From positions 1 to 64,000 of the forward strand of contig JAIPBL010000022.1 of NCBI GenBank assembly GCA_021739645.1: 64,000 nucleotides of DNA. Reading direction: 5' to 3'. Below, piece after piece: positions 18,817-29,800 of the stretch; positions within the stretch are counted from its first letter, which is position 1; every line of letters starts with the position of its first letter. The translations under genes and the position numbers were made by a program. The notes below the pieces were generated by a model. That model had not been told where the DNA came from, did not search any database, and worked only from the letters and a program-made list of their open reading frames with translations. The stretch is from Saprospiraceae bacterium. GTDB lineage: Bacteria; Bacteroidota; Bacteroidia; Chitinophagales; Saprospiraceae.

Positions 18817-19839
18817 ATGTCACAATACATTTCAGTTACAGCCCCTCAAAACCATTCCGACACCCAGTTTCCACAAACACCAACACTGCAATCCGATGCG
18901 CTGCTGCTCGATGCCTACTCCCGCACCGTTGTTGGGGTTTCGCAGGCAGTCAGCCCGTCCGTGGTGCAGATGAAGGTGGTGAAAAAGCCAAACCCGCAGG
19001 CTCGACAGCGCCAGCAACCGTTTGGCACGGGCAGCGGCTTCATCATTTCCACCGATGGATTTATCGTGACCAACAGCCATGTGGTCAATGGTGCCGAGAA
19101 AATCGAGGTGGTGCTGCAAGATGGCCGGGAATTTAGTGGCAAGCTCGTCGGGGAAGACCCCGCCACCGACCTTGCCCTGGTGCAAATCAATGGCGACAAC
19201 ATGCGTGCTGTTCGTTTCGGCAAGAGCGAATCGCTACAGGTAGGCCAACTCGCCGTGGCCATCGGCAACCCGTTTGGCTTCCAATATACCGTGACGGCAG
19301 GCGTTATCAGCGCCCTGGGCCGCACCCTGCGCAGCGAAAGCGGCAGACTGATTGACGACGTGATACAGACGGATGCGGCGCTGAATCCAGGTAACTCTGG
19401 TGGTCCGCTCGTTGATAGTTCGGGCCTCGTCATTGGGGTGAACACGGCGGTTATCCTGCCAGCGCAGGGGCTTTGCTTCGCCGTATCGAGCAGCCTGGCG
19501 GAGTACGTGGTGGGCAAACTGCTCATCGAAGGAAAAGTGCGCCGTGGCATCATCGGCATCGCCGGACAGACGGCGCCCATCAATCCCCGCTCCATCAGCC
19601 ACCACCAATTGACCACAAAAACAGGCATCCTCGTGCAGGGTGTCGAGCCGACCGGGCCTGCCAGCGGTGGCCTGCATGTCGGCGACATCATCATTGCCTT
19701 TGAGGGAAAATCCGTCCATTCCATTGACGACCTCCACAAGCACCTCGACGAAACCACCATCAACACCATGGTGGAACTCACCGTTTTGCGAAGTGGACAA
19801 AAGGAAATGGTGGTGCTGAGGCCGAAGGAAATGGGGTGA
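18817..19839 (+). CDS. HtrA-type serine protease with PDZ domain, no signal peptide
   Basis: A 340-residue trypsin-like protease of the DegP/HtrA family with a single PDZ domain. The catalytic triad is His 88 (TNSHVV), Asp 118 (ATDLALVQI) and Ser 194 (NPGNSGGPL), with the GNPFG loop upstream. The PDZ domain covers about 245-335 (GPASGGLHVGDIIIAFEGKS). Usual family members are periplasmic, but this N-terminus (MSQYISVTAPQNHSDTQ) is polar with no signal peptide or anchor, and no alternative in-frame start supplies one. It may therefore be cytoplasmic, or exported by another route. A second, membrane-anchored family member lies at 59133-60287. Confidence 0.9.
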   Translation: MSQYISVTAPQNHSDTQFPQTPTLQSDALLLDAYSRTVVGVSQAVSPSVVQMKVVKKPNPQARQRQQPFGTGSGFIISTDGFIVTNSHVVNGAEKIEVVLQDGREFSGKLVGEDPATDLALVQINGDNMRAVRFGKSESLQVGQLAVAIGNPFGFQYTVTAGVISALGRTLRSESGRLIDDVIQTDAALNPGNSGGPLVDSSGLVIGVNTAVILPAQGLCFAVSSSLAEYVVGKLLIEGKVRRGIIGIAGQTAPINPRSISHHQLTTKTGILVQGVEPTGPASGGLHVGDIIIAFEGKSVHSIDDLHKHLDETTINTMVELTVLRSGQKEMVVLRPKEMG

Positions 19840-19912
19840 CTGGTGATTGGTGATTGGTGATAGGTGACTGGGTAGGCCCCGCTAATCACCAGTCACCAAT
19901 CACTAATCACCA
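19838..19912. repeat. pair of inverted heptad arrays
   Basis: 19838-19871 holds five degenerate 7-nt units (GGTGATT, GGTGATA, GGTGACT). 19883-19912 holds the complementary array (AATCACC, AGTCACC, AATCACT, AATCACC). Together they can fold into a hairpin between the converging protease and TlpA-like genes, overlapping the last codons of both. Confidence 0.75.
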
Positions 19913-21102
19913 AAAAGCGCTTCCACCCACTTCACCAACTCCTCCCCGTGAAGGTTTTTCGCTAGCACCTTGCCATTTTCATCCAAAAGAAAATTGGCGG
20001 GGATGGAAGTCATGCGCAGTTCCTTGAACAAGGGGGCGTCGTCGCCTTGGAGGTGCGAGGCATGGGGCCATTTTCCAACGCCGTCTTTTTCGATGGCGGT
20101 GGACCAAGCGCCGGTGCTGGCATCGAGCGCATATCCCACGATTTGGAAGCCTGATTCGTGCTGTTTTTCCCACAATGAAACGAGGGTATTTCGATTTTCT
20201 TTGCGGCAAGGGGCGCACCACGACGCCCAAAAGTCGAGCAGCGTGAGGCGCTTTCCCAATAATGTTTTCAATGAAACCGTATCGCCTGAAAGCATGGGCA
20301 TCGGGTAATCCGTCGGGATTTGGTCGCCGACCAGCACGGGCAGGGTCTTGCGGTCGCCCTTGGCTGCCATCTGCGCTACCCACGGGTGGCCGGGCGCTGT
20401 GGCTTTCCATCTTTCTGCTTGCGCAACGATGAACTCCGGCACCCGCTCATAATCCCCCTCCACGCTCACCCAACGGATGGCCGTGAGGGCGGGCAGCAGG
20501 TAATTGGTCTGCTCCGCAAACTGCATGATGGGCTTTTGAAAAGACAACTTCGCCGCTTCCTCGTCGAGCAGGGCGGACTCGTCGTGCGCTTCCCCGTCCT
20601 TTTTTCCACCTAAAAATTGATCGAAAGCCGCCTGTCGGATGTCCCGCAATTGGAGCATGGCGGCATTTTCATCTGAGGGTTTTTCGATGGAAAAGGTGCG
20701 CTGAAAATGCGCCGCTTCTGCCTTGACCACAATTGCTTCGCCGTTTTTATAAACCAATGGGAAATAGTTGGACGTGCCAGGGTCGTCGTTGTCTAGGCGG
20801 TTGGGGTGCTGGGCTTCGGCTTTTGGTTGGATGGCCAGTTCGAAGAGCCTAGCATCTGCTGCCTCGGGCATTTTTTCAAAAGCAAAACTGCCGTCTGGTT
20901 GGATGGTGGCCGAATCGAGTACCGTGCCGAGGTAGCTGCCGCCGATGCCGCCCCAGGTTTTGGGGTCTAGGAGGTAAACGACGGGCTTCCACTCGCCCCT
21001 GGCATCCAAGGAAATGGTGCCGGATAGAGGCGGCATCTTCGAACAGCCTGTGAACAGGGCCAACAATAGAAAAAGCATGGGGATGGTGGATTTTAGACGC
21101 AT
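19903..21102 (-). CDS. TlpA-like thioredoxin-fold lipoprotein
   Basis: A 399-residue lipoprotein. It has a signal peptide with lipobox LFTGC (Cys 20), an N-terminal beta-rich domain of the type seen in Bacteroidota TlpA/DUF4369 proteins (SGTISLDARGEWKPVVYLLD), a helical middle (about 150-265), then a thioredoxin fold from about 275. The redox site is WASWCAPC, and the fold closes with the cis-proline TSIPANFLLDENGKVLAKNL. It is expected to face the periplasm and reduce or exchange disulfides, perhaps in cytochrome maturation or stress. A TATCTTTG box (21153-21160, minus strand) lies about 50 nt upstream. Confidence 0.88.
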   Translation of the reverse strand: MRLKSTIPMLFLLLALFTGCSKMPPLSGTISLDARGEWKPVVYLLDPKTWGGIGGSYLGTVLDSATIQPDGSFAFEKMPEAADARLFELAIQPKAEAQHPNRLDNDDPGTSNYFPLVYKNGEAIVVKAEAAHFQRTFSIEKPSDENAAMLQLRDIRQAAFDQFLGGKKDGEAHDESALLDEEAAKLSFQKPIMQFAEQTNYLLPALTAIRWVSVEGDYERVPEFIVAQAERWKATAPGHPWVAQMAAKGDRKTLPVLVGDQIPTDYPMPMLSGDTVSLKTLLGKRLTLLDFWASWCAPCRKENRNTLVSLWEKQHESGFQIVGYALDASTGAWSTAIEKDGVGKWPHASHLQGDDAPLFKELRMTSIPANFLLDENGKVLAKNLHGEELVKWVEALFGD

Positions 21103-21152
21103 GGATATGGTTGTGTTTTTATGAATGGGTTGGCAAAAATCATACTTCTTGC

Positions 21153-21160
21153 CAAAGATA
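21153..21160 (-). promoter_or_regulatory. candidate -7 box of the TlpA-like gene
   Basis: Reads TATCTTTG on the minus strand, an exact TAnnTTTG match, 50 nt before the ATG at 21102. No clear -33 TTTG. Confidence 0.45.
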
Positions 21161-21273
21161 ATTGGTGCGTTTAGTCACCAATCACCTTCACTTGCAGTTC
21201 CTCCCAAATGTTTGTAAAAGAAAAAACAGCATCAAACACGATATTAAATGTCTTTTCATCATGAAAATAAGCC

Positions 21274-22251
21274 TCATTTCGCCAAAGGCCTTTTCTTAAT
21301 CACCCCGCCCTTCGCATCCTTCACCACGTTCATTACCACGAAAGCATCCGGGTCAATCTTCTCCACCTCCGTTTTCAGTTTTGACAGTTCCAAACGGGTG
21401 ACGACGGTGAAGACCACGTCCTGTGGTTTCAGCTCGGAGCCACGTTTGGCGAAGCCGCCCTTGGCACTGTAAACCGTGACGCCCCGCCCCAGCTTCTCGA
21501 TGATGGCCAAGCGCACCTCCTCGTGGTGGGGCGAGATGATGGTCACGCCGATGTACTCTTCGATACCGTCCACGATGAAATCCACGGTTTTGGAGGCGGC
21601 GAGGTAGGTGAGGATGGCGTACATGGCCACTTCCACCGACAAAACATAAGCGCCGAAGGTGAAAATGACGAGGTTGAAGCCGAGGATGATGTCGCCGACG
21701 GTGAGGCTGGTTCGGCGACTGAGCCAGACGGCAAGTACCTCCGTGCCATCAATGACCGCCCCGCCCCGGATGCTCATGCCGATGCCAGCACCCAGGAAGA
21801 AGCCGCCGAAAATGGCGATGAGCAGTTTGTCCTCGGTGATGGTGGGGAAATGCACGAAATGCACCACCACGGCCAGCAGGGCGATGGCCACGATGCTTTT
21901 CAGGGCAAATTTCCGGCTGATGGTCTTGGCCGCCATGAAGATGAATGGCAGGTTGATGAGCGGTAGCAGGATGGACAACGAAATACCCGTGACCACCTCC
22001 ACCAAGAGCGAAATACCCGTGACGCCACCATCTATAAAGGCGTTGGGCAACAAGAATCCTTTGAGGCCAACGGCGGCGGCGGTCACGCCGATGAGGATAT
22101 AAATAACGTCCTTCACAGCACGCTTGAGGTCAAAACGGAGGTTCCTTACTTCTTTTTTGAGCTGTCTGATGGGAAGTTCGGAGCCTTTGTGCCTTTTTAT
22201 GACTGCTTTTTCAACGACGTTGTTGATGATTGTCTGATAGTATGGGTTCAT
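21274..22251 (-). CDS. YitT-family membrane protein (DUF161 plus DUF2179)
   Basis: A 325-residue inner-membrane protein with a short basic cytoplasmic N-terminus and about five to six membrane segments from residue 50 to 215. Family signatures include GLKGFLLPNAFIDGGVTGIS and FFLGAGIGMSIRGGAVIDGTE. The soluble C-terminal DUF2179 domain (about 230-315) has YIGVTIISPHHEEVRLAIIE and GVTVYSAKGGF. Family members are widespread and mostly uncharacterised. It is monocistronic, with a promoter-like box 18 nt upstream of the start. Confidence 0.9.
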   Translation of the reverse strand: MNPYYQTIINNVVEKAVIKRHKGSELPIRQLKKEVRNLRFDLKRAVKDVIYILIGVTAAAVGLKGFLLPNAFIDGGVTGISLLVEVVTGISLSILLPLINLPFIFMAAKTISRKFALKSIVAIALLAVVVHFVHFPTITEDKLLIAIFGGFFLGAGIGMSIRGGAVIDGTEVLAVWLSRRTSLTVGDIILGFNLVIFTFGAYVLSVEVAMYAILTYLAASKTVDFIVDGIEEYIGVTIISPHHEEVRLAIIEKLGRGVTVYSAKGGFAKRGSELKPQDVVFTVVTRLELSKLKTEVEKIDPDAFVVMNVVKDAKGGVIKKRPLAK

Positions 22252-22268
22252 CCAGGTGTTGTTTTGGC

Positions 22269-22276
22269 CAAAAATA
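22269..22276 (-). promoter_or_regulatory. candidate -7 box of the yitT-like gene
   Basis: Reads TATTTTTG on the minus strand, 17 nt before the ATG at 22251, implying a leader of only about ten bases. Confidence 0.4.
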
Positions 22277-22402
22277 ACGATTCAGAAGGAGATGGTGAGG
22301 GTTAATAATTTGATTGCTTCTCCATGGTTGAACCAATCGACCTGGATTTGTCTCTTGTTTTATACTGTTATTTTAAACAGTACTCAGTGAAAGGCCTTGT
22401 GA

Positions 22403-22580
22403 AAAATTAAAGGGCAGAATAAGAAAGAGGCGAAGAAATACCTCGAAGTAGCGCTCGATGCTTCCTTTGAACTGGGGCCGGTGGCGGCGATGGAGATTAA
22501 GGAAGATTTGAAGCGGCTGAGATTATTGCAACCATTTGGACGAAATTATAAGCGGAGTTACCGGGGCGGCTTTGGGGCGT
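22403..22580 (+). pseudogene. possible remnant of a helical-repeat (TPR-like) gene
   Basis: An open but startless frame reads KIKGQNKKEAKKYLEVALDA and on through SFELGPVAAMEIKEDLKRL, which looks like the last helices of a TPR-type protein. It begins just after an in-frame TGA and loses sense where it meets the AT-rich methylase gene on the other strand (ending at 22604). I read it as host gene debris at the left border of the restriction-modification insertion. The rest of 22252-22603 shows only the yitT promoter box. Confidence 0.35.
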
Positions 22581-22603
22581 TCCAGTTTTTTTTTGATAGC
22601 CAA

Positions 22604-23524
22604 TTAGTCGAAATTCAATGCCAATTGCTCAACTTTAGACTTTCCTTTTTGTCCATGATTATGCTGGGCAAAATCATCTGTATCGAAATTACAAACAAGC
22701 GCTTCAACGATGGTTCGCCTGTTTTCAATATTCCCGCCATTATGGTAAAAATGGTCTTTTGTCAAGATATTGAACTTGCTCCAAAGTTTCTTTACCATTT
22801 CGTTTTCCCGCCAATCGTTGTGGTGCCAAGTTGACAGCACAAATTTGGCTTTGGTTTCGCTTAACAGTTCAAATAATTGCACTTCGTCTTTTTCTGTCCA
22901 GCCATTGTAGTAATCAACATGGCGGCCATAATAGGGTGGGTCGCAGTATATGAAATCATTCTTAGTAGCAAGTGGAATAATATCGAAAAACTGTTTATTG
23001 TAAAATGTCCAAGTTGGCTCAGGCTGAATTATTTGAGAAACTGTGGCCACCTGATTGGTTATCTTGGTGATATAAGCCTGTGCAAACCTGTCAGGCTTTT
23101 TGCAAAATGGGATGTTCCAGTTTCCCTTGCCGCCAAAACGCATCATGCCATTAAAGCCTGCACGGGAAAGGAATATGAAATCATAAGGCGAGAATTCGCC
23201 GCTATTAAATCTTGCCCTAACTTTTAAATAATGCTCATATCCATTGTTTTCGGCCTTGCTCAATAAAGCTCCCTCCTGCTCTAAATATGCTTTCATTAAA
23301 GCAGGCGTGATTTTGCCTTCTTGAATTCCTCTGTAAAAATTGATGATATGCGGATTAATATCGTTTAATATTGCCTGTTTATATCCTGTATTAAAAGCGA
23401 CAACACCAGTGCCCAGAAACGGTTCTATCCATTTGCCGCTCACTTTGGGTGCAATTTCCTTAATCCAAGGTACTAACTTTGTTTTTATACCTTGACTTTT
23501 TATGGGAGGAACGATTACTTTCAT
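22604..23524 (-). CDS. adenine-N6 DNA methyltransferase (Dam/D12 family), EcoRV-type partner
   Basis: A 306-residue class D12 adenine methylase. Motif I is EPFLGTGVVAFN (34-45), which binds S-adenosylmethionine, followed by NDINPHI (54-60). The catalytic motif IV is CDPPYYGR with DPPY at 195-198. The opening VPPIKSQGIKTKLVPWI is the usual D12 N-terminus. Because the gene just upstream encodes an EcoRV-like nuclease, its likely role is to protect GATATC; M.EcoRV belongs to this same family and methylates the first adenine. That specificity is inferred from the partner. It overlaps the nuclease gene by 4 nt (ATGA). Composition is AT-rich against its neighbours, suggesting acquisition. Confidence 0.92.
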   Translation of the reverse strand: MKVIVPPIKSQGIKTKLVPWIKEIAPKVSGKWIEPFLGTGVVAFNTGYKQAILNDINPHIINFYRGIQEGKITPALMKAYLEQEGALLSKAENNGYEHYLKVRARFNSGEFSPYDFIFLSRAGFNGMMRFGGKGNWNIPFCKKPDRFAQAYITKITNQVATVSQIIQPEPTWTFYNKQFFDIIPLATKNDFIYCDPPYYGRHVDYYNGWTEKDEVQLFELLSETKAKFVLSTWHHNDWRENEMVKKLWSKFNILTKDHFYHNGGNIENRRTIVEALVCNFDTDDFAQHNHGQKGKSKVEQLALNFD

Positions 23525-24438
23525 TTTGGTTTATTGTAGGTTGTTTTGGTGACTATCTTACCCAATAGGTCTGCTCTGCCTTTGAATTCCAAGAAATCCT
23601 TTAGCGTAGTGATTTTCATGGGTTTGCCGTCCTTAATCATGGTGGCAGCACCGTGGTTTATCCAGTATTCATCAAACCATTGTTCTCCCATTTGGCTGAA
23701 TATGCCGTTTTCATTTTTCAGGTCGTCAATGTCAACGATGGAGCCAATATTGGCGGTGTTTCCTGACCCTTGTTTGTCGCTTGCAATTTTCCATTTCTCG
23801 GCAGCGAAGAAATCAAAATCTTTAATGACTGATGTGATGGATTTTAAGTGCTCAACTTTGGTTACTTCACGTTGGCCCACTTTCCGAACTGGATTTTCAT
23901 TTCCCTCCAAAAGGTCTTGAACCTGATATATTTCAGTTTCGGATAGGTCTTCACTGGCATCTGTTCTCGTATAAATAACTCCTAAACAATAATGTCCAAG
24001 ATATTGGTCATATGGGAATTGGATATTTTTATCCTTATCACGTTCCTTGAAATAGCCACCATGACTTCCCAAAGTAAAGCCAGCAGTTCTGTGATTTCTC
24101 CTAAATGTGGTTTTAATGTCAAGCGCAAATTTTACTGCTTCGTTCTGTTTGTTTATGAAAGTTAGGTCTGGATACCAATTCTGTTTTTCGGCAAGTACTA
24201 TTTTGTAATTTATGCTCTCAGCAAATTGCAATATCTGTGGGAAAATATGGATTTCGAGTATTTTTGAAACTATCTTGGTGTCAGAGGAAATAGTATAAAT
24301 ATTCTTGCAAACATCAATAAAGCCTTTTATTGACCAATCACCATTATCGGTAGAGACGTATGCCTTGAGCTTCTTAGCAAACTTGTCAAGTTCCTTTTTA
24401 AACGCTGATTTATATTTGTTTTTATCGGCTAATTTCAT
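23521..24438 (-). CDS. type II restriction endonuclease, EcoRV family (predicted site GATATC)
   Basis: A 305-residue homologue of R.EcoRV. The PD-D/ExK site is Pro 90-Asp 91 (NWYPDLTF, compare NHYPDFTL in EcoRV) and Asp 107-Ile-Lys 109 (ALDIKTTF, compare AIDIKTTY). FTLGSHGGYF, FPYDQYLGHY and VIYTR align with FTLGGYTSF, YPFDQYIAHW and YVYTR. The recognition loop reads GSGNTANIGS (224-233) against GSGNTTNIGS in EcoRV, supporting the same GATATC specificity; that is inference. EcoRV has 245 residues; the extra length is an N-terminal extension and insertions after residue 160. The frame opens 26 codons further upstream, but that stretch is uncharged and atypical, so the ATG at 24438 is chosen. 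A TACCTTTA box ends 4 nt before it. Confidence 0.93.
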   Translation of the reverse strand: MKLADKNKYKSAFKKELDKFAKKLKAYVSTDNGDWSIKGFIDVCKNIYTISSDTKIVSKILEIHIFPQILQFAESINYKIVLAEKQNWYPDLTFINKQNEAVKFALDIKTTFRRNHRTAGFTLGSHGGYFKERDKDKNIQFPYDQYLGHYCLGVIYTRTDASEDLSETEIYQVQDLLEGNENPVRKVGQREVTKVEHLKSITSVIKDFDFFAAEKWKIASDKQGSGNTANIGSIVDIDDLKNENGIFSQMGEQWFDEYWINHGAATMIKDGKPMKITTLKDFLEFKGRADLLGKIVTKTTYNKPK

Positions 24439-24442
24439 GCGG

Positions 24443-24450
24443 TAAAGGTA
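24443..24450 (-). promoter_or_regulatory. candidate -7 box of the restriction gene (leaderless start)
   Basis: Reads TACCTTTA on the minus strand, one base from TAnnTTTG, with only 4 nt before the ATG at 24438. If used, transcription would begin at or beside the start codon, giving a leaderless message. Confidence 0.35.
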
Positions 24451-24530
24451 GCTAAATTGAAATAAACACCATTGAGGTCCATGCCAATATTTCTCATTTT
24501 CCCTACCTTCCACCAATAAAACAACCCGTA

Positions 24531-24687
24531 ATGCTCAAACGAATCAGCATCTTTTTGTCACTATGCATTGGTCGCATTCCTGTCCTAACCCCAGCCCACC
24601 CACCACCTCCAAAAAGGCGTCGTGATAGTCAGCTTCAACTACTGCCTTGGGGGCTTCGGTCTCCTCGCCCGCCGAGAACTGAGCCAG
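24531..24687 (+). pseudogene. remnant of a type B carboxylesterase gene
   Basis: An ATG at 24531 starts a signal-like segment (MLKRISIFLSLCIGR). In another frame, 24622-24687 reads VIVSFNYCLGGFGLLARREL, matching the conserved carboxylesterase block VVVV-x-NYRLG-xx-GFLA-xx-ELS. Everything between and after, including the GxSxG nucleophile region, is missing. I read it as two surviving pieces of one deleted esterase gene at the right border of the restriction-modification unit. The block match is by eye. Confidence 0.5.
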
Positions 24688-24806
24688 AAATCTGTAAGTC
24701 CAGCAAATTTGCCCCAAAAGTTGTGAAAAGCATTACCTTATTTTACTACATTTGGCGCAGCCACAAAGGCCAAAAGCTTTTTTTCACCAATTAAAAACGA
24801 GTTATC

Positions 24807-25346
24807 ATGACAAAACGAATCATTGGAACCGCCGTGGCCGGAATCCTTCTCTTTCTTTGGCAGTTTCTTTCCTGGTCTAAACTAAACGTGCATGGCAGCG
24901 AGATGCAGTACACCGACAAGCAGGATGCCGTCTTGCAGGTGCTTTCAGAGAAACTGAAAGAAGGCACTTATTTTCTGCCCAATGTTGCTCCCAATAGCAC
25001 AGCGGAACAGCAAAGTGCCTATATGGAGAGCAGTGCCGGTAAGCCTTGGGCTACCGTCAACTACCACGAATCCATGAACACCAATATGGGCATGAACATG
25101 ACCCGGGCAATCGTGATAGACCTACTTTCCGCTTTTCTGCTGATTTGGCTGTTTGGGAAAATGGCCAACCCAAGTTTTCAGACCATCCTGCTTTCTTCGT
25201 TGGCGGTAGGCTTTATCGGCTATTTGACTATTCCATATTTGAATTCTGTTTGGTTTGAGACGAGTTCTTTTGGATACCTCGTGGACGCCATTGGGCAGTG
25301 GGGTCTGGTCGGGCTTTGGCTGGGCTGGTACTTGAATCGAAAATAG
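24807..25346 (+). CDS. hypothetical membrane protein, 179 aa
   Basis: Four predicted membrane segments: about 5-22 (GTAVAGILLFLWQFL), 100-118 (IVIDLLSAFLLIWLF), 124-146 and 156-176 (WGLVGLWLGWYL). Residues 23-99 form a polar loop, presumably periplasmic, with TDKQDAVLQVLSEKLKEGTY. No family is recognised with certainty; small four-helix proteins with a large first loop are common and uncharacterised. The ATG at 24807 is preceded by an A-rich tract. A strong hairpin follows at 25380-25414. Confidence 0.7.
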   Translation: MTKRIIGTAVAGILLFLWQFLSWSKLNVHGSEMQYTDKQDAVLQVLSEKLKEGTYFLPNVAPNSTAEQQSAYMESSAGKPWATVNYHESMNTNMGMNMTRAIVIDLLSAFLLIWLFGKMANPSFQTILLSSLAVGFIGYLTIPYLNSVWFETSSFGYLVDAIGQWGLVGLWLGWYLNRK

Positions 25347-25379
25347 TAGCGCATCCTCACACTATGGTTTTCATGCACG

Positions 25380-25414
25380 GGCTTCCTGCTCGCCAACAGG
25401 CGGAGCAGGAAGCC
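25380..25414. repeat. perfect 12-bp stem hairpin
   Basis: GGCTTCCTGCTC, an 11-nt loop, then GAGCAGGAAGCC, extended outward by CAC/GTG after one mismatch. It follows the 179-aa membrane protein gene by 33 nt but has no T run, so it is either a weak terminator or a REP-like palindrome. Confidence 0.7.
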
Positions 25415-25474
25415 TGTGAAATTTATGCCCGATTATAAGCGAAGGCATTGGTCTATATTCGGCAACTTTGCCAC

Positions 25475-25509
25475 CTCAAACACTCAACTCCTCAAACACT
25501 CAAAATCTC
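25475..25509 (+). repeat. heptad array before the PNPOx-like gene
   Basis: Degenerate units of 7-8 nt built on CTCAAAC and ACTCAAC, running to 4 nt before the ATG at 25514. There is no purine-rich ribosome binding site between the array and the start. Confidence 0.65.
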
Positions 25510-25513
25510 ATAA

Positions 25514-26071
25514 ATGGGCAAATTCTCCACCACCATCCTACCCCACCACCGGGAATTCATCGAAAAGCAGCACCTGTTTTTCACGGCCAGCGCACCATTG
25601 AGCGAGGCCGGTCATATCAACCTTTCCCCGAAGGGAATAGATGGCTTTCGGGTGTTGTCGGAAACACAGGTAGGCTACATGGACTTCATCGGCAGCGGCA
25701 ACGAGACCTCGGCGCATGTGCTGGAAAACGGGCGCATCACCTTCATGTTCTGCGCCTTCGATGGCCCGCCAAACATCCTGCGGCTGTACGGAAAAGGCCG
25801 CACGGTGCTGCCCGGCACTCCGGCTTGGGAGGAGTTAGCACCGCTATTCAAAATCTTCCCTGCCACCCGCCAAATCATCGTGGCGGACATTGACTTGGTA
25901 CAAACCTCCTGTGGCTACGGTGTGCCGCTGTATGAGCATGTTGGTGAGCGGCGCACCATGCTCGACTGGGCGGAGAAGAAGGGCGAGCAAGGATTGGCTG
26001 AATACATTCAGGAGAAAAATCTGGTGAGCCTGGATGGGCTGCCGACGGACTGGAAGGTGCGGGAAAGCTGA
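25514..26071 (+). CDS. pyridoxamine 5'-phosphate oxidase-like flavoprotein
   Basis: A 185-residue split-barrel protein of the PNPOx-like superfamily. Visible signatures are HLFFTASAPLSEAGHINLSP near the start, YMDFIGSGNETSAHV, RITFMFCAFDGPPNILRLYG and the barrel strand KGRTVLP. The family binds FMN or sometimes haem or F420. This branch, with the NLSPKG motif, is usually annotated only as PNPOx-family, without proven vitamin B6 activity. Cytoplasmic. It is convergent with the LuxR-type regulator gene, whose stop lies 4 nt away. Confidence 0.88.
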   Translation: MGKFSTTILPHHREFIEKQHLFFTASAPLSEAGHINLSPKGIDGFRVLSETQVGYMDFIGSGNETSAHVLENGRITFMFCAFDGPPNILRLYGKGRTVLPGTPAWEELAPLFKIFPATRQIIVADIDLVQTSCGYGVPLYEHVGERRTMLDWAEKKGEQGLAEYIQEKNLVSLDGLPTDWKVRES

Positions 26072-26075
26072 TTCC

Positions 26076-26714
26076 TCAAACCTCTCCATCCAAGGACTTG
26101 CGTATCAGTTCCCCTTTACTATTGATATTCAATGCCCGATAAATGTGCATGATATGCGAGCGCACGGTATCAATCGAAAGGTCGAGGCGGGCGGCTATCA
26201 TCTTGTAACTGAGGCCGTCCACGATGCCCTTCACAATTTCCAGTTGGCGTTCGGTAAGGGAGGGGTGGTCTTTTTTTGGTTTTGGGGCAAAATGTTCGAC
26301 CACCTTGCGGGCGATAGAGGGCGACATGTACGAGCCGCCATTGCTGACGGTCAGCACGGCTTCCTTGATTTTGGCCAAAGGCGTCTGCTTCGAAAGATAG
26401 GAGCAGGCACCTGCCATCAGCGCCGCAAAGATTTTTTCACTGTCCTCAAAAGTAGTGAGCATGATGATGCTCAAATCGGGCAGGCTTTCCAGGATGATGG
26501 GGATGCCCGCAATGCCGGTCATGCCGGGCAGTTGGATGTCGAGCAGGAGGATGCTGGGTTGGAGCTGGCTGTCTTCATGGAGCATTTTCAGGAAATCCTC
26601 CACCGAGTTGGCGATGGCCAATATTTCAAACTGCGGACTGCTGCCAAAAAAAGTGTGCAAACTTTCTTTAACGATTGGGTCATCTTCCACAATAGCTAGG
26701 GTGATTGTCTTCAT
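26076..26714 (-). CDS. NarL/LuxR-type response regulator
   Basis: A 212-residue two-domain regulator. The receiver domain (1-120) has the acidic pocket EDD (10-12), phospho-acceptor Asp 59 (ILLLDIQLPGMTG), Thr in LTTF and the conserved Lys 109. The LuxR helix-turn-helix at about 145-205 reads LTERQLEIVKGIVDGLSYKM and continues with a DTVRSHIMHIYRAL recognition region. The ATG at 26714 gives the normal receiver start; the frame is open 24 codons further. It is divergent from a Reg_prop sensor kinase 110 nt away, its evident partner. A perfect -7 box ends 4 nt before the ATG. Confidence 0.93.
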   Translation of the reverse strand: MKTITLAIVEDDPIVKESLHTFFGSSPQFEILAIANSVEDFLKMLHEDSQLQPSILLLDIQLPGMTGIAGIPIILESLPDLSIIMLTTFEDSEKIFAALMAGACSYLSKQTPLAKIKEAVLTVSNGGSYMSPSIARKVVEHFAPKPKKDHPSLTERQLEIVKGIVDGLSYKMIAARLDLSIDTVRSHIMHIYRALNINSKGELIRKSLDGEV

Positions 26715-26718
26715 GGGA

Positions 26719-26726
26719 CAAAGATA
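26719..26726 (-). promoter_or_regulatory. -7 box of the response regulator gene, placed for a leaderless message
   Basis: TATCTTTG on the minus strand, exact consensus, ending 4 nt before the ATG at 26714. The same box-to-5'-end distance is seen at the tRNA-Ser gene, so the transcript probably starts at the ATG. Confidence 0.5.
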
Positions 26727-26823
26727 AGTCGGCAAAAACTGGGAGGCCATCACATTTTGATGCGATGCACATTCCGTGTAAAACAAAAAACCTAGCTAAC
26801 TTGCCAGCCGAAATCTTACTTCG

Positions 26824-29800
26824 TTGCAAGAAAAAAACACGGCTAATTTCCTACTGCTTATCCTCCTATGGAGCATGCCAATGGTGCTTTCCGCCCAGCG
26901 CATGCCCATACCCGAATCGCTGACCATGCAGGACGGCCTCGGCTTCCGTGACATCAAGGCGATAGCGCAGGACAGTAGGGGACTGATGTGGATTGGCACC
27001 ACTCAGGGCATTGAGCGTTACGATGGGTATCGTTTTGTGAAATATGGCAGTGACAGACAGGCAACTTTCCGTTTCCCCGGCGAATCCGTTTCCGACGAAA
27101 ATATGTTGATGGTCAACGATTCCAACCTTTGGGTGCTGGCCGACGAGGTGCTGTTTGAGCTGAATTTGAATACCCACAATACGACCAATCTCACTGCTGC
27201 GGCCGGTCTGAAAGGTGGGGTTTTTACGCTTCGGAAAGGAGCGGACGGCACCATTTGGATTGTGACTGACGACGACAGGGAGCAGGTTTTGCTCCAATAC
27301 GAGGGCAACTACCATTTCCGGCAAGTGGCCACCGCACAGCATTTGCGCATGCCGTTCAACGACGTTGCCATTGATACCACTGGGAATGTCTGGTGGAGCA
27401 CCAATGCAGAGGGGCTGCGGCATTTCAGCCCCAACGGTGCGCTGCTCCACACCGTGAAACCCGACAGCATCGACTGGTTCGGTACTAAGATTTATTACAC
27501 CAACATTTCCACCGACAGCCGTGGTCGCCTGTTTGTTTTCCCAAAAAGCAAAAACGAAATCTGGCACTACCACCCGGAAACCCGACAATACGATGTGCTG
27601 GCCGACAACCTCTCCACCAAAGTTTACAGCCACTTGGAGGATACCCGAGGCAATATCTGGTTTGCGATGTTCGATGGGCTGCTCCGCTGGAGCCCGTCGG
27701 GCGAATGGACGGATTTCAGCGCCACGTTGCACAACAGTTTGCAGTTCACCAACATCCACCACCTGTACGAAGACCGCACCCACCTGCTCTGGATTGCTAC
27801 TGACAATGGTCTGCTGCGCTTTCCCATTGCCAGGGATATATTCCAAAATCACCTGACCGTACCTGGCGCAGAGTGGGGCAATGCCATGCGGGGCATCTTC
27901 GCTGACAACGAGGGACAGGTCTATGCCCTGTGTGAAAATGGGCAGAAGGGCCTGCACCTGTTGGGCAAGGGCCAACATAAAGACCGCCTACTAATTTCCT
28001 TCCAAGACTCTTTGCCGCTGACAGTCACCATGAGCTACGCCATTAATTTCATTTTTGATAAAACTGAAAATGTAGCCTGGACGCTGAACGACCGCCTCCT
28101 GAAAATACACTTGAATAACCATCAATGCAGCATCGTGGAAGATTTTGATGGACTATTTAAAAAAGTATTGCGCAACCCGATTTGCTTGTTGCAAGATGGG
28201 AAATTCCTATTGGGCTCCGAACTGAATAAGCTGACCTTGTATGACACCAAGCGTCGGGAATACAGCCCCTTTTTTACTGGTGGAACGGGCAGTCTCCCTT
28301 CCACCAATTCGCAGGTGATATTTGAAGATGCGCATGGTTTGGTATGGGTGGGTACAATTTCCGAGGGCTTGTATTGCTTCAACCGAAAGGGAGAAGAGCT
28401 GGCGCATTTTACCACCAAAACAAAACCAGCCCTAAGCAAAGACCACGTGCTGGCACTACATGCTGACAAGACGGGGAAGCTGTGGGTGGGGACTTTCGGC
28501 GGTGGGTTGTGCAGCATAGCACTGCCGCATGACCTGTCAGGTTTAAAAAACCTGACAGGTCTGACCCTCAGAGTCTTCACCCAAAAAGAGGGCCTGAGCG
28601 ACAACAACGTGGTGAGCATCCATGAAGATGACGAAGGTAATATTTGGGCAGGCACCTACAACGGGCTGTCGTGCTACCGGGTGTCGGAAGGTGTTTTCCG
28701 CAATTTTTACGAAGAAGATGGCCTCTCCAGCAACGAGTTCAACTACGCATCTTCGATGAAAGACGAACAAGGCGGGCTTTGGTTTGGCGGCATGAACGGT
28801 GTCAATTATTTCAACCCGAAAGACATCCTCCAAAGCGAGAAAAACCCGGCGCTATGCCTCACGGGCTTTACGAAGTACAACAGCCAAATGGACAGCACGC
28901 TGGTGCAAGTGATTGGAAATCAGGCGATTGGCAGGTTTGCCATTTCACCTTACGACAGTTGGTTCCAGTTCAGTTGGGCGCTGCCCAATTATTTCAAGCC
29001 GGACAAAAACCACTACTACGTCCAGTTGGAAGGGCTGGAAGGCGATTGGTCGTACCTCGGCAACACGCCCTTCGTGCGCTACAACAAACTGCCTTGGGGC
29101 GATTATGTCCTTCGGGTAAAAGGCTCGGACAGCAAGGGCAACTGGAGCGAAACCGAACTGGCTATTCCCATCACCGTGCAACCGTTTTTTTACCAGAGAT
29201 GGTGGTTTTACCTGTTGGCACTTGGGCTGGTTGGAGGAGTTGGCTACAGCGTCGCCCGTTACCGCCACCACCGCCTATTGGAAATGGAGCGGATGCGCAC
29301 CCGTATCGCCAGCGACCTGCACGACGAGGTCGGCTCCATGCTCTCCGGCCTTTCGATGCAGGCGGAACTGCTCGAAATGAACGCCACTGAGACAGACCGA
29401 CCCCGCATTGAGCATATCGGTGACATCAGCCGCACAGCGGTCTCCAAGATGCGGGACCTCGTGTGGAGCATTGACAGCCGCCGGGACAAAGTGAAAAACC
29501 TCCTCGAACGGATGCAGGAACAAGCCACCGACCTGCTGCAACCGCAAGATATTTCCTGCCATTTTTTGCTCGGCGACCTGCCGTTGGAGAAAAAACTGCC
29601 CGTGGATATGCGCCAGCACTTGTTCCTTATTTTCAAAGAAGCCCTGAACAACGTAACCCGACACAGCAACGCCACGGAGGTGACGGTGCGCTTCGGCAAC
29701 TTTGATGGGCGGTTAGAAATGAGCATCCACGACAATGGCGACTTACCGCAAAAAGACCGGGTTTCCACTGGCCTTGGCCTATCGAATATGGAAATGCGGG

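Follow-up and report, generated by a model that had tools for sequence, protein, structure and literature searches.

A predicted EcoRV-kind restriction-modification unit in a Saprospiraceae bacterium and its relatives

The locus and its two genes

The window analysed here comprises the first 64,000 nucleotides of contig JAIPBL010000022.1 (forward strand) of a Saprospiraceae bacterium, assembly GCA_021739645.1. Within it, two adjoining genes encode homologs of the nuclease and the methylase of the EcoRV system, which we call R and M.

23521..24438, minus strand: R, EcoRV-family type II restriction endonuclease, 305 aa, ATG start (intact reading frame, profiles, alignment, fold)
22604..23524, minus strand: M, D12-class adenine-N6 methyltransferase, M.EcoRV-like, 306 aa (intact reading frame, profiles, alignment)
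23521..23524, minus strand: ATGA overlap of the R stop and the M start on the same strand, R first

The initial annotation had placed an EcoRV-family restriction-modification unit at 22604-24438, and both reading frames are indeed intact there on the minus strand. For R, a longer alternative frame starts with TTG and reaches 24516. As R precedes M on one strand and the stop and start codons overlap, translation of M is probably coupled to that of R, and the two genes would be co-transcribed.

Family and fold of the nuclease

R matches the Pfam family Endonuc-EcoRV (PF09233) with 340.8 bits (cut-off 25), the EcoRV chains in the PDB with E = 1.9e-31 (phmmer), and the PADLOC type II restriction enzyme model with 118.2 bits, while none of the NCBIfam models searched with it matches. 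The 8 distinct PDB sequences listed at E <= 1 are all EcoRV. Over the alignment, 32% of residues are identical (80/247), and the similarity as a whole is far beyond chance. An AlphaFold2 model of R built from 38 sequences has a mean pLDDT of 77.4 and a pTM of 0.78; its confidence is low for residues 87-89 and 226-229, which belong to the two recognition loops. When this model was compared with the PDB by Foldseek, 39 matches were obtained at E <= 0.001, all of them EcoRV entries (best E 2.0e-16; TM by target length 0.72-0.82); the next matches, which include Hjc and HincII, have E >= 0.029. No other PD-(D/E)xK family thus provides a better structural match, and the placement of the nuclease in the EcoRV family is supported by Pfam, the PDB sequence search, the predicted structure and the conserved active-site and recognition-loop residues described below. 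By analogy with EcoRV, R would act as a homodimer.

Relatives and conserved residues

The initial annotation took EcoRV to have few described relatives. This was not borne out, as one scan of a genome collection returned 121 stretches encoding a relative, of which 80 were kept (best-segment identity 54-84%). Judged by record title, they are mostly from Bacteroidota, with some from Chlorobiota, Nitrospirae, Verrucomicrobia and others. The family occurs sporadically, being found in 4/40 relatives and in 5/395 genomes of the class, the host's own genome counted in both. Phage records searched with R gave no match, and a DNA-level plasmid search gave 2 partial records. None of the papers returned by a literature search on EcoRV homologs deals with relatives of this clade, as judged from titles and the opening parts of abstracts.

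Ninety proteins were aligned: R, the 80 scan loci, six plasmid records (of 12 matching) and three genomes, with L001, L002 and L093-L095 left out as duplicates. In EcoRV, the residues E45, D74, D90, K92, Q69, N70, K38, G182-T186 and N188 are catalytic or base-contacting. At the active site, E62, D91, D107 and K109 of R align with E45, D74, D90 and K92 of EcoRV, so that the PD ... DIK motif proposed earlier is kept, together with the glutamate. In EcoRV numbering, identity between the two enzymes also extends to K38, Q69, N70, K119 and R140 and, in the R-loop, to G182, S183, G184, N185, T186 and N188. Eight positions are identical in all 90 proteins (K92, K119, R140, G182, S183, N185, T186 and N188); E45, Q69 and D74 are identical in 89/90, with one gap each, D90 in 89/90, the remaining protein having Tyr, N70 and K38 in 88/90, and G184 in 87/90. 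EcoRV residues that differ in R are Q68, H71, K104, T111, S112, I114, N117, T187, R221, S223 and R226, which weighs against a complete equivalence of the two enzymes.

The recognition loop of R reads GSGNTANIGS, with a single change from EcoRV (T187 to Ala), as had been noted from the sequence. Since 86 of the 90 proteins, R included, have Ala at this position, the change is the normal state of the clade and not a peculiarity of R. Thr is found in two proteins, EcoRV and that of an Acinetobacter plasmid, and Glu in two others, from Latilactobacillus and Geobacillus plasmids. The roles of the R-loop, the Q-loop, Asp74 and Lys38 of EcoRV are given in a review (PMC4081073), in the searched text of which T186, T187 and N185 do not appear.

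The earlier estimate of about 60 extra residues also held, R exceeding the 245-residue EcoRV by 60. From alignment offsets, about 17 of these are N-terminal, 24 lie between EcoRV positions 140 and 182, and 17-18 are C-terminal. An insert at this internal position is typical of the clade: the stretch from 140 to 182 has 43-53 residues in 82/90 proteins and 21-26 in 8/90. The short form is found in all six plasmid proteins and at two genome loci, and as four of these eight come from loci with R followed by M, the insert does not strictly track gene order.

The methylase

M matches Pfam MethyltransfD12 with 159 bits and the NCBIfam dam subfamily with 179.8 bits (cut-off 114.85). Its DPPY motif is CDPPYYGRHVDYY, and its PDB matches are the DpnII and Dam adenine methylases. 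To the methylase of plasmid pEC159, whose nuclease carries the same protein accession as EcoRV on pLG13, M is identical at 159/295 aligned residues (54%). Together with the D12 profile match, this agrees with the initial description of the partner as a D12 adenine methylase like M.EcoRV.

Among plasmid records, 14 have a match to M at E <= 1e-30, and 12 of these also have an EcoRV-family nuclease. The two exceptions are from Allochromatium tepidum and Kovacikia minuta. The former, pAt1 (L083 2995-3912), encodes an M.EcoRV-like methylase identical to M at 165/295 residues, in a record with no EcoRV-family nuclease match; a gene for a 132-aa protein without any Pfam match lies before it, and iscB follows.

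The likely target sequence

GATATC is the likely target of the unit. R would read this site through its R-loop and Q-loop and cut it with D91, D107 and K109 (D74, D90 and K92 of EcoRV), while M would methylate an adenine of the same site and thereby protect the host. It is improbable that the clade combines the EcoRV fold and chemistry with recognition of a related, non-identical hexamer. Such a reading would be consistent with the Ala that nearly all members share at 187 and with the absence from R of K104, T111, S112, R221 and other EcoRV residues, but five R-loop residues (G182, S183, N185, T186 and N188) are invariant, N70 is nearly so, and M is more than half identical to the methylase of the EcoRV plasmid.

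The frequency of the site was counted as well. The host genome has 773 GATATC in 6.16 Mb (126 per Mb). Its 13 congeners span about 56 to 216 per Mb, with a higher density than the host in six and a lower one in seven. Of these 13, G006 is the one that also carries the family, and it has 848 sites in 8.4 Mb, or 101 per Mb. In a 324-kb sample of the host genome (13 stretches of 20 kb, L115-L127, and the window; 5.3% of the genome), 38 sites were seen vs 60.9 expected (z -2.9, ratio 0.62), which ranks GATATC 34th of the 64 palindromes from the most depleted; in the window alone, 9 were seen vs 14.5 expected (rank 40/64). A pooled count over 82 loci (104 seen vs 158.5 expected, rank 11/64) was set aside, since the genomes pooled in it vary in composition. 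GATATC is therefore mildly depleted and no more avoided than most palindromes. The missing special avoidance could be taken in favor of a different hexamer, but it also fits a recent gain of the unit, which would leave no trace, and the counts accordingly neither support nor refute GATATC as the target. A literature search for EcoRV together with GATATC methylation in Bacteroidetes returned no match.

Some other palindromes are nearly absent from the 324-kb sample: GTCGAC (1 vs 50.6 expected), CTCGAG (3 vs 89.8), GTATAC (0 vs 13.1) and CATATG (2 vs 20.3). Their scarcity may be a sign of earlier restriction at sites other than GATATC.

Gene order and controller genes

Gene order was counted over 89 distinct R loci (92 minus three duplicates). 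In 81 of them M follows R on the same strand, four end at a contig end within 243 bases of R, and the other four are plasmid systems with a small HTH gene directly before R. In all 81 tandem loci the M frame starts at most 172 bases from the end of the R frame; the junction at the R stop is ATGA in 54, TAATG in three and of another kind in 24. On the controller plasmids, R and M are divergent in EcoRV and Geobacillus and convergent in Latilactobacillus and Acinetobacter. These four plasmids encode precisely the four proteins without Ala at 187, and the 86 proteins with Ala come from the loci with R followed by M (82 with the window) and the four cut by contig ends.

When the four plasmid HTH proteins were compared with frames of at least 40 aa in window 19001-28000, no controller gene was found by the unit at E <= 0.01. 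Elsewhere, besides the four themselves, a weak match lies about 400 bases upstream of R in L052 (E = 8e-4) and another about 2 kb from the methylase in L083.

The EcoRV system of E. coli plasmids pLG13 and pEC159 consists of R.EcoRV, M.EcoRV and a small HTH controller-type gene. It shares with the unit described here the nuclease family, the fold, the active-site residues and the base-contact residues, and a homologous methylase. Unlike R.EcoRV, R is 60 residues longer, with about a third of its residues identical and Ala in place of T187, and unlike the divergent EcoRV genes, R and M follow one another on one strand with no controller gene found nearby. A parallel in layout is plasmid pRMAR01 of Rhodothermus marinus DSM 4252, which has R followed by M, the 4-base overlap and the GSGNTANIGS loop (R 55% identical, 152/274; M 52%, 150/290). 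It differs in being plasmid-borne and in lacking the internal insert, with 24 residues where R has 47. The units of Flavobacterium, Lacibacter, Saprospiraceae and other, mostly Bacteroidota, hosts have the same gene order and R proteins up to 84% identical, most with the internal insert; in two of them (L003 and L004), M is 85% identical to that of the window (261/306 and 260/306).

With lineage and clade defined by gene order, insert and residue 187, it is possible, though we lean somewhat against it, that two EcoRV lineages exist. In this tentative division, a small lineage made up of EcoRV and the Geobacillus, Latilactobacillus and Acinetobacter plasmids would bear a controller, with Thr or Glu at 187 and M encoded on the strand opposite to R. 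The other lineage, large and mostly from Bacteroidota, would lack a controller of this kind and have Ala at 187, with M following R on a shared strand. Members of the latter would have to enter an unmethylated host in another way. If the division is real, translational coupling or a slow maturation of R, with its added tails and insert, might for instance replace the controller.

Viral contigs with related genes

Five viral contigs from IMG/VR (L129-L133; for example L130 3881-5553) carry an identical EcoRV-family R stretch with no match to residues 1-94 of R, the region of E45, the Q-loop and the PD aspartate. The R stretch is followed by a methylase 83% identical to M, which covers residues 1-298 in four contigs and in L133 runs off the end of the contig. 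In L130, some neighboring genes match phage families. This looks like a virus in which the nuclease has decayed and the protective methylase has been retained. A further contig of the viral collection, L134 (3992-5721), has an R and M pair that looks full-length; it may be bacterial DNA, since what appear by eye to be a penicillin-binding protein and an integrase adjoin it.

Such pairs of a decayed nuclease and a near-complete methylase give some precedent for the idea that M of the window, too, works by itself, R being either without activity or not expressed. We consider this very unlikely, as R of the window has its full length and retains every catalytic residue. An active R that cuts, paired with an M that protects, is the preferred reading.

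Neighborhood and horizontal gain

The G+C content of the unit is 34-40% in 500-base steps, vs 51% for the window. For comparison of the flanks we used a genome of the same genus (G003), as the match to the closest relative (G013) extends only up to window position 22281, near the end of its contig. Two flanking segments frame the unit.

22419..22518, plus strand: 3' remnant of a 435-aa gene, about 33 codons, not part of the system (89% identity over 100 bases; full-length at L139 5305-6612 in a same-genus genome)
24495..24694, plus strand: far-side flank, not part of the system (colinear with the same G003 contig, 73-74% identity)

On contig C16 of G003, the order is a YitT gene, two small genes, the 435-aa gene (TPR-like by eye), two long genes (289 and 803 aa) and the far flank. 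The pieces shared with the window are colinear with this contig, and the window has, in order, YitT, the remnant of the 435-aa gene, the restriction-modification unit and the far flank; neither the two long nor the two small genes of G003 have a match in window 21000-26100. The low G+C content and the presence of other genes at this place in G003 suggest that the unit was gained horizontally, and a gain in the lineage of the window would be the likelier direction of change. The part missing from the 435-aa gene is that on the YitT side, away from the unit, and its truncation need not share the event that brought R and M. In G006, R is on contig C53 and YitT on C85, which hints that R sits at a different place there.

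The surroundings are also mosaic in a wider sense. Beyond 24694 the order breaks again, window 25514-26049 matching another contig of G003, and the segments 22142-22600 and 24495-26049 of the window consist of gene remnants and of pieces that in same-genus genomes are spread over different contigs or separated by other genes.

Significance

Taken together, R and M very probably form an EcoRV-like type II restriction-modification system of two genes, directed at GATATC, in which R cuts and M protects, and which was probably gained horizontally. The unit is an ordinary one of a known kind, common to many Bacteroidota though sporadic, and the general picture of restriction-modification is unchanged. 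Its value lies in showing a textbook enzyme as part of a broad natural clade, where the 90 aligned proteins separate fixed residues from those peculiar to EcoRV and a few others, such as T187. This may be of use in interpreting studies of EcoRV specificity and in selecting protected DNA with which to transform such bacteria. The remaining interest is in the split between controller-bearing units and those with R first.
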